From positions 5,080 through 25,646 of IMG/VR virus record IMGVR_UViG_3300030450_001525: a DNA stretch of 20,567 nt, one strand, 5' to 3'. Below, one piece after another: positions 1,291 to 3,250 of this stretch (positions are counted from its first letter, which is position 1; every line of letters starts with the position of its first letter). The DNA comes from a virus. The position numbers were made by a program, and so were the translations under genes. The notes under the pieces were generated by a model, which was given only the letters and a program-made list of their open reading frames with translations, had not been told where the DNA came from and ran no database searches.

Positions 1291-1319
1291 ATTCTATCTC
1301 ATGTTTCTCAAAAAGTAAA
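1291..1319 (-). promoter_or_regulatory. Phage promoter P3, TTTACT-N17-TAGAAT
   Basis: The -35 box TTTACT (1314-1319) and -10 box TAGAAT (1291-1296) have a 17-bp spacer. ACTCC precedes the -35 box, with an A/T tract (1321-1350) upstream that could act as an UP element. It drives the zinc-ribbon gene and the 91-aa gene. Confidence 0.88.
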
Positions 1320-1357: not shown

Positions 1358-1518
1358 GTGGACAGTTCGAAACGAGGAGTATATGAAAACTCTTTTTCCA
1401 AACTGTCCACGACGAGTGTGTTGAACGAGATTAGGAGGACAGGAAATAGGTCTCGTTCAACTTTACTAATAGCGGAGCACCACTCACAGTGCTCACTGGT
1501 ATTAACCCTACTCCTGTC
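1358..1518 (-). ncRNA. Structured RNA element with three hairpins and a predicted pseudoknot
   Basis: This 160-nt stretch between a stop codon and promoter P3 contains four independent pairings. Stem A pairs GTGGACAGTT (1358-1367) with 1401-1410 and holds an inner GAGT/ACTC hairpin. Stem B is an 11-bp perfect helix, GTTGAACGAGA (1420-1430) with 1451-1461. Stem C pairs GAGCAC (1475-1480) with 1489-1494 and has an outer TAATA/TATTA helix (1467-1471 with 1500-1504). The loop of stem B (1438-1444 GACAGGA and 1447-1450 TAGG) is complementary to 1507-1518 (CCTA and TCCTGTC), forming a pseudoknot. It begins 6 nt past the stop of the 83-aa gene, so it is probably the 3' part of the P4 transcript. The strand is an inference because the stems pair on either strand. 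Confidence 0.65.
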
Positions 1519-1524
1519 TGAAAC

Positions 1525-1776
1525 TTAATGTTGTTGCATTAAATAAAATTTTGCTGACAACGACAAACAATCTATGTTTGCGTCAGCAATCTTTTGCACA
1601 TCTTCCCTTTTACACCAAGACCAACATAAAGGAAGTGCGTCACGTTCTTTTTTCGGAAGATCTGCTAGTCGCATATCTTTCCATATTGAACGTAGTTCGT
1701 CAATCTCGTTGGTTTCTTGCTTTTCTTCTTCGACAGTAAGTTCGCCGTCAAATATATTATGTGTAAATTTTTTCAT
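1525..1776 (-). CDS. Unknown small phage protein, 83 aa
   Basis: This is an unrecognised 83-residue protein. The first 35 residues are acidic (ELTVEEEKQETNEIDEL), followed by a basic and aromatic segment (SIWKDMRLADLPKKERDALPLCWSWCKRED) and a short hydrophobic end. AAAAGGAGGAAC places a strong ribosome site before the ATG. It is the second gene of the P4 operon, 29 nt after the 81-aa gene. The structured RNA at 1358-1518 follows its stop codon directly. Confidence 0.75.
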   Translation of the reverse strand: MKKFTHNIFDGELTVEEEKQETNEIDELRSIWKDMRLADLPKKERDALPLCWSWCKREDVQKIADANIDCLSLSAKFYLMQQH

Positions 1777-2563: not shown

Positions 2564-3250
2564 ATGGTAGATTTACATCGAATCTATAATTACAGTCCCG
2601 ATAATATAGCTCCCGAGCTTTTAGAAGCCACACAAGATTACGTGCTTGTTCCCGAAGAAAACTTTATGCCGACCGAAGAAGTTAAAGCATCGGTCTTAGA
2701 TTTTATTGAAGAACCAGCACCAGATATTATTAGCTTTCCGTTTTTAACACCAAAGTATTGTGCTGATCTTGTAAGTTTATGCGACGCAATCGGAAAGTTC
2801 GACCATAGACCAGGAGATTCTTATCCTGCTCCTGAAATGGATTTAAAAGATATGTCACCTTATATAAATACAACACACATCCAAAATATCGAGAAACACA
2901 TTCTACCAATCGCATGTAGTAAATGGGCATTCCCTTTAGTTTGGTTATCATCGGCGTTTGTGGTTAAGCACAGCATGGATGGGCAGATTGGCAATCCTGG
3001 ATGGCATCATGACGGTTTGGCAGACATCTCATTGTCAGTCCAACTCAACGACGACTTCGAAGATGGTGGTGTTTATTTTGAAAACCAAAAATTTGGTGCT
3101 GGTAATTTACCTGTTGGTCATGCCATTTTATTTCCCTCGCGAGTGACACATCGTCACACGGCACTTAATATTACGAAAGGAAAACGATATTCTTTAACTT
3201 ATTGGATGAAAGGCGATATTCCAGAAGATCGATCAGCCAGAACCACATAA
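2564..3250 (+). CDS. 2-oxoglutarate/Fe(II)-dependent oxygenase, prolyl/lysyl-hydroxylase type
   Basis: This 228-residue protein carries the double-stranded beta-helix signature of 2OG-Fe(II) dioxygenases in its C-terminal half. Iron ligands are the H-x-D motif at His148/Asp150 (within WHHDGLAD) and His198. Arg208 (GKRYSLTYW) should bind 2-oxoglutarate. The segment SVQLNDDFEDGGVYFE is typical of the P4H/PLOD-like branch. Residues 1-55 are acidic and not recognised. Marine phages often carry such enzymes, but their substrates (protein side chains or other small targets) are mostly unknown. It is one of only two rightward genes in the window, stands alone, and converges on the small membrane peptide gene at 3252. 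The start is the only ATG consistent with the promoter 6 nt upstream. It is unlike TET/JBP base oxidases, so a role in DNA modification is speculative. Confidence 0.88.
   Translation: MVDLHRIYNYSPDNIAPELLEATQDYVLVPEENFMPTEEVKASVLDFIEEPAPDIISFPFLTPKYCADLVSLCDAIGKFDHRPGDSYPAPEMDLKDMSPYINTTHIQNIEKHILPIACSKWAFPLVWLSSAFVVKHSMDGQIGNPGWHHDGLADISLSVQLNDDFEDGGVYFENQKFGAGNLPVGHAILFPSRVTHRHTALNITKGKRYSLTYWMKGDIPEDRSARTT

Follow-up and report, generated by a model that had tools for sequence, protein, structure and literature searches.

The stretch of DNA analysed here, called the window, is 20.6 kb long, has a GC content of 35% and comes from an IMG/VR virus record of 25.6 kb. Its DNA polymerase and terminase are nearest to those of 023Pt_psg01, DSL-LC04 and the Pelagibacter phages HTVC023P and HTVC027P (48–58% identity), and by this measure the source is an uncultivated marine phage, kin to the HTVC023P-type pelagiphages and presumably with a SAR11-like host. 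A DNA similarity search of 50,697 phage records returned no match to the window and only chance matches to the element described below. Genes near that element lie mostly on the minus strand and in short units, most of which are headed by a repeated promoter block (TTTACT-17-TAGAAT, at 111, 697, 1319, 2111 and 2515); the blocks (61–120, 650–710, 1260–1350, 2050–2120 and 2480–2540) are about 60–90 nt long and about 72–89% alike, and close relatives carry similar ones. Farther on along the minus strand come a likely terS (a call based on its size and its place ahead of terL), then terL, then a likely portal gene. A 2OG-Fe(II) oxygenase-like gene (PHROG 61, 2564–3250) runs on the plus strand, opposite to its neighbours; L006, L005, L013 and G001 have a 228-aa ORF at the corresponding position, likewise on the opposite strand. 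The features of the locus itself, read along the minus strand, are the following.

1525–1776, minus strand: gene A, 83 aa; its stop codon lies 6 nt ahead of PK1, and it adjoins the element in all copies.
1358–1518, minus strand: the whole structured RNA element, a predicted 3′-UTR domain of gene A (fold z −5.6, covariation, CM R1 matches only to syntenic copies).
1507–1518, minus strand: PK1a, the 5′ strand of PK1, GACAGGAGUAGG; its partner is the P2 loop at 1438–1450, and 98.3% of cells are paired.
1495–1506, minus strand: loop L1, GUUAAUACCAGU; 10 of 12 positions invariant.
1475–1494, minus strand: hairpin P3, GAGCAC-UGUGAGUG-GUGCUC; all 8 loop positions invariant.
1420–1461, minus strand: hairpin P2, with an 11-bp stem, GUUGAACGAGA/UCUCGUUCAAC, that survives GC/GU/AU and AU/UG changes.
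1438–1450, minus strand: PK1b, the 3′ strand of PK1, CCUAUUUCCUGUC, within the P2 loop.
1431–1437, minus strand: loop L3, CUCCUAA; together with the bases ahead of it, this is a run of pyrimidines that complements Shine-Dalgarno sequences.
1414–1418, minus strand: the PK2 strand CACUC in the P2–P1 junction, a plausible partner of GAGUG in the P3 loop (1481–1485); invariant.
1358–1410, minus strand: hairpin P1, with a 10-bp base, GUGGACAGUU/AACUGUCCAC, a variable apical part and a CG/UA compensatory pair; the 3′ end of the element.
1291–1319, minus strand: the promoter of the next unit, TTTACT-17-TAGAAT, which bounds the element and belongs to the repeated promoter unit.

The original prediction for this locus was a compact RNA whose helices are nested or pseudoknotted, and its pairings can be read directly from the window: an 11-bp perfect stem (1420–1430/1451–1461), a 10-bp perfect stem (1358–1367/1401–1410), a loop-to-tail pairing of 7 bp (1438–1444/1512–1518) plus 4 bp (1447–1450/1507–1510), and a 6-bp stem (1475–1480/1489–1494), although G011 and G001 have not kept the outer helix (TAATA/TATTA) that had been assigned to the last of these. 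An additional 5-bp match between loop and junction (1414–1418 with 1481–1485), absent from that list, is invariant in all copies. The further claim that so much pairing goes beyond chance was borne out by dinucleotide shuffling of these 161 nt, in which none of 2000 shuffles held two perfect stems of at least 10 bp; one perfect stem of that size occurred in 1.3% of them, and 0.15% reached the native summed length of disjoint perfect stems. Minimum free energy z-scores, calculated with pseudoknots left out, were −3.9 for the plus strand and −5.6 for the minus strand, and on neither strand was any of 200 shuffles as stable as the native sequence.

Four further IMG/VR records (G011, G002, G005 and G001), spread over three lineages, turned out in DNA searches to carry the element; G002 and G005 are almost the same, so that there are four distinct sequences in all, one of which carries most of the variation. 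Across the five-copy alignment the proposed fold, with its pseudoknots, comprises 220 cells, and 99.1% of them hold standard pairs, against 34–46% for slid partners; both the covariation score and the paired percentage lie above those of all 500 shuffles. Five pairs have changes on both sides, and three of these (one in P1 and two in P2) are robust; the other two, PK1 columns 22 and 23, derive from G001 and were discounted because the alignment register is doubtful there. In G001, the most diverged copy, the PK1 strands change register and move to a contiguous 8-bp match (GGAAUAGG/CCUAUUCC). RNAalifold likewise recovered P1, P2 and P3, with 3 compensatory pairs. A lack of compensatory changes among homologues had been named in advance as counting against a compact, partly pseudoknotted RNA; such changes are present both in the five-copy alignment and in the RNAalifold result, and they support that structure.

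Conservation is not confined to the stems. Invariant positions make up 10/12 of L1, 8/8 of the P3 loop, 6/8 of L3 and 8/9 of the junction, and the freely varying parts are the P1 apex (7/33 invariant) and the linker (4/13) that separates P3 (1494–1475) from P2 (from 1461). Unpaired loops of the core roughly equal the stems in conservation, a pattern suggestive of a defined tertiary fold that meets a partner, more than of a plain end-hairpin. As a whole, the element is 92.5% identical between the window and G005, where gene A is 80.2% identical; against G001 the values are 78% and 81%, and the element is no better conserved. Judged from these sequence comparisons, some 160 bases of the locus make up a genuine folded RNA domain that evolution has kept and that probably contains two pseudoknots. 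Because a perfect stem looks the same on both DNA strands, one might imagine a DNA-level feature such as a cruciform or protein site, or else accidental leftover inverted repeats; we consider this very improbable, since G-U changes in the stems, the crossing PK1 pairing and the invariant loops suit an RNA, and an accident is unlikely given the covariation and shuffle results.

The strand on which this RNA is made bears on every later interpretation. The original prediction placed the structure just after a stop codon and implied transcription of the plus strand; the stop codon is indeed there, 6 nt away, but it is that of a minus-strand gene (1525–1776), and G-U evidence, alifold and promoters all point to the minus strand. 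Eight cells fail to pair when the alignment is read on the plus strand, compared with two on the minus strand, and alifold gives −45.1 with favourable covariation for the minus strand and −40.8 without it for the plus strand. Minus-strand promoters flank the locus, one ahead of the preceding unit (2111–2083) and one past the element (1319–1291), and the promoter scan listed no plus-strand promoter-like site near 1358. The element is therefore most likely made on the minus strand, a good case, yet one with few changes behind it, some of which (in P3 and PK1 of G001, and in the apex of P1 in G002) favour plus. An independent plus-strand noncoding RNA, antisense to the 3′ end of gene A, would draw on that P3 and that P1 apex, which pair only on plus, on the good plus-strand fold (z −3.9), and on the conservation of an AT-rich stretch ahead of P1 (TTAAATTATTTTTATTAA). 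Set against these are the excess of failing cells, the preference of alifold, the missing start-site promoter, and the fact that the AT-rich stretch lies mostly within the repeated minus-strand promoter unit, so that this reading appears quite unlikely.

The element keeps close company with one gene. Gene A precedes it in all five contigs, with protein identities of 72–94%, but the next gene beyond the following promoter differs in every genome, and the sequence ahead of gene A also varies. Because gene A and the element co-occur while the following gene changes, the element is best described as a 3′-UTR domain, and sequence comparison makes gene A plus the element the natural unit. It lies on the same strand as the preceding gene and is linked to it, as a 3′-UTR RNA should be, with the strand supported rather than proven. 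Gene A itself belongs to no PHROG or Pfam family and has no tblastn match in phages, and its AlphaFold model is of low confidence (pLDDT 56). CM R1 matched only the known copies, in synteny, at 164–219 bits, and found none in 84 further loci (80 of them from terL relatives) or in the four named relatives. The terL of the carriers is at least 97% identical to that of the window, and L005, with a terL at 87%, has neither gene A nor the element; the unit is therefore a feature of a narrow clade. No second copy was found within the same genome. DNA patterns based on the element recovered from IMG/VR nothing beyond the four known contigs except chance hits that found no support in CM, BLAST or direct reading, and one such pattern gave two hits in GTDB genomes, judged to be chance by their count and unrelated hosts. 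None of the Rfam 15 covariance models matched in the window at gathering score, and a permissive Rfam search of 1300–1560 gave only chance eukaryotic hits far under the cut-off.

Several familiar roles for a structure at the end of a gene can be set aside. The suggestion of a frameshift-like element fails because the structure comes after a stop codon and the relatives do not share any reading frame across it. Frameshifting or read-through was rejected since frame 0 past the gene A stop stays open across the element only in the window and closes within it in G011, G005 and G001; PK1 begins 6 nt past the TAA of gene A, which fits read-through spacing but has little weight without a conserved extension. 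Nor is any frame through the element conserved on either strand, which disposes of conserved coding. An intrinsic terminator was rejected as well: P1 is followed by AUUUAAUAAAAAU and no U-run, and the terminator scan found none here on either strand.

A subtler form of transcription control in cis is conceivable, in which the minus-strand RNA would be a non-canonical terminator or a put- or EAR-like antitermination RNA by which polymerase would continue into terS and terL downstream. The element does sit between units, with an intrinsic terminator downstream of it (229–208), ahead of terL. However, there is no U-tract behind P1, the next unit has its own promoter after about 40 nt, the window's other unit boundaries do without the element, and no Rfam hit points to put or EAR; this explanation, too, strikes us as rather improbable.

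What sequence comparison does support is a set of three hairpins, P1, P2 and P3, together with PK1, in a fixed place behind gene A and with no conserved coding. The element would be transcribed on the minus strand from the phage's own sigma-70-like promoters as the 3′ UTR of gene A. P2 and PK1 form a probable H-type pseudoknot in our model, and because no nucleotide separates P2 from PK1b the two helices could stack end to end. P3, within the first loop, may then dock in the junction, GAGUG of its loop meeting CACUC (PK2), a plausible pairing that never varies and so stands outside the covariation evidence, and P1 would cap the 3′ side. The CCUCCUA loop is conserved, is mostly unpaired in the model and can pair with gene A's own Shine-Dalgarno sequence (−12.3 kcal/mol in the window), so it could engage Shine-Dalgarno sequences, gene A's own included, with the caveat that such complementarity is generic to any anti-Shine-Dalgarno-like run.

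How such a domain would be used is a more delicate matter. A regulatory RNA and an exonuclease-resistant 3′ end, the other two roles offered in the original prediction, are both candidates. Our tentative preference, held at somewhat short of an even chance, is for a stable 3′-UTR-derived phage RNA acting in its own right. In its least certain steps, the domain might be left over from the gene A transcript as a stable 3′ fragment, and this RNA might bind a protein, the ribosome or target mRNAs. A simpler account, which we regard as somewhat unlikely, is that the element is a 3′-end protector only, blocking 3′-to-5′ exonucleases past Rho-dependent or processed ends and thereby stabilising the short gene A mRNA. 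Its start 6 nt past the stop, its strong terminal 10-bp hairpin lacking a terminator U-tract, a position that tracks gene A rather than the next gene, and the ordinary U-tract terminator (229–208) at the end of another unit of the same phage all agree with protection; but invariant loops and two pseudoknots are needless for a mere barrier, and an ordinary hairpin does the job elsewhere in the genome. The boldest version of an RNA acting in its own right, an undescribed phage RNA class in which a double-pseudoknot 3′-UTR RNA and an 83-aa gene form a module whose RNA builds up in infected cells and works in trans on translation or RNA decay of the host or the phage, seems to us unlikely. A compact pseudoknotted RNA travelling with one small gene would lend itself well to tests of transcript and structure, and possibly offer a handle on how pelagiphages control mRNA or host functions; a mere mRNA end protector would be a modest finding.

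Other structured candidates occur in these phages. On the minus strand at 2120–2485, downstream of the promoter at 2515–2487, lie about 360 nt with no obvious gene, the first 110 nt or so of which are almost identical in four genomes; a possible H-type pseudoknot (2479–2474/2459–2454 with 2468–2462/2441–2435) plus a hairpin is followed by a long-range stem near 2370/2140, with no Rfam match, and the region is a second noncoding RNA candidate of the same phages, possibly a stronger one than 1358–1518. Also on the minus strand (120–247), past the terminator at 229–208 and just ahead of a promoter block, is a short conserved hairpin-like motif (TTTCG...GAGTC...GTGGACT...CGAA), with diverged copies in L006 (17830–17900) and L005 (6750–6820). 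Upstream of terL in HTVC027P (L035, 9891–10030) and 023Pt_psg01 (L036, 9151–9290) are strongly folding non-coding stretches that have GATCCCAG...CAGGGATCAG and a GGGGA/TCCCC stem in common, what seems to be a separate structured RNA of this phage group; the scan of relatives relied on a small number of shuffles and a fixed SD, which makes its z-values only rough pointers. The words “noncoding”, “intergenic” and “promoter” are absent from the main text of two pelagiphage papers (PMC9599517, PMC12753301). Structured RNAs of SAR11 phages appear to be little studied.

Several known systems invite comparison. H-type folds are familiar from riboswitches and frameshift sites, such as the preQ1-II, SAM-II and coronavirus-type pseudoknots, and the element shares with them two stackable stems, crossing loops and an embedded hairpin; it differs in lying in a 3′ UTR rather than a leader or slippery site, in carrying its hairpin in the first loop, in lacking an Rfam hit and in keeping no reading frame. 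The put and EAR processive-antitermination RNAs are, like the element, intergenic structured RNAs inside a transcribed region, and EAR also has a pseudoknot, whereas the element has no Rfam hit, stands behind one gene and is followed by units with their own promoters. Anti-Shine-Dalgarno loop sRNAs of the CcsR/cuckoo type, found in alphaproteobacteria, likewise have a conserved pyrimidine loop complementary to Shine-Dalgarno sequences, but the loop of the element would lie inside a pseudoknot, and the complementarity is generic. The xrRNAs are also compact pseudoknotted 3′-UTR elements; the known ones act on 5′-3′ enzymes in eukaryotic cells, while the element, at most a candidate exoribonuclease-resistant RNA, has no Rfam match. 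The general kind to compare is that of the 3′-UTR-derived and 3′-end RNAs of bacteria and phages, from which the element differs in its two probable pseudoknots and in its want of an intrinsic terminator U-tract and an Rfam match. Fitting no named family, it may be regarded as a new candidate among structured phage and 3′-UTR RNAs, with which it shares a place directly past a stop codon, the strand of its gene, a strong 3′ hairpin and conserved loops.
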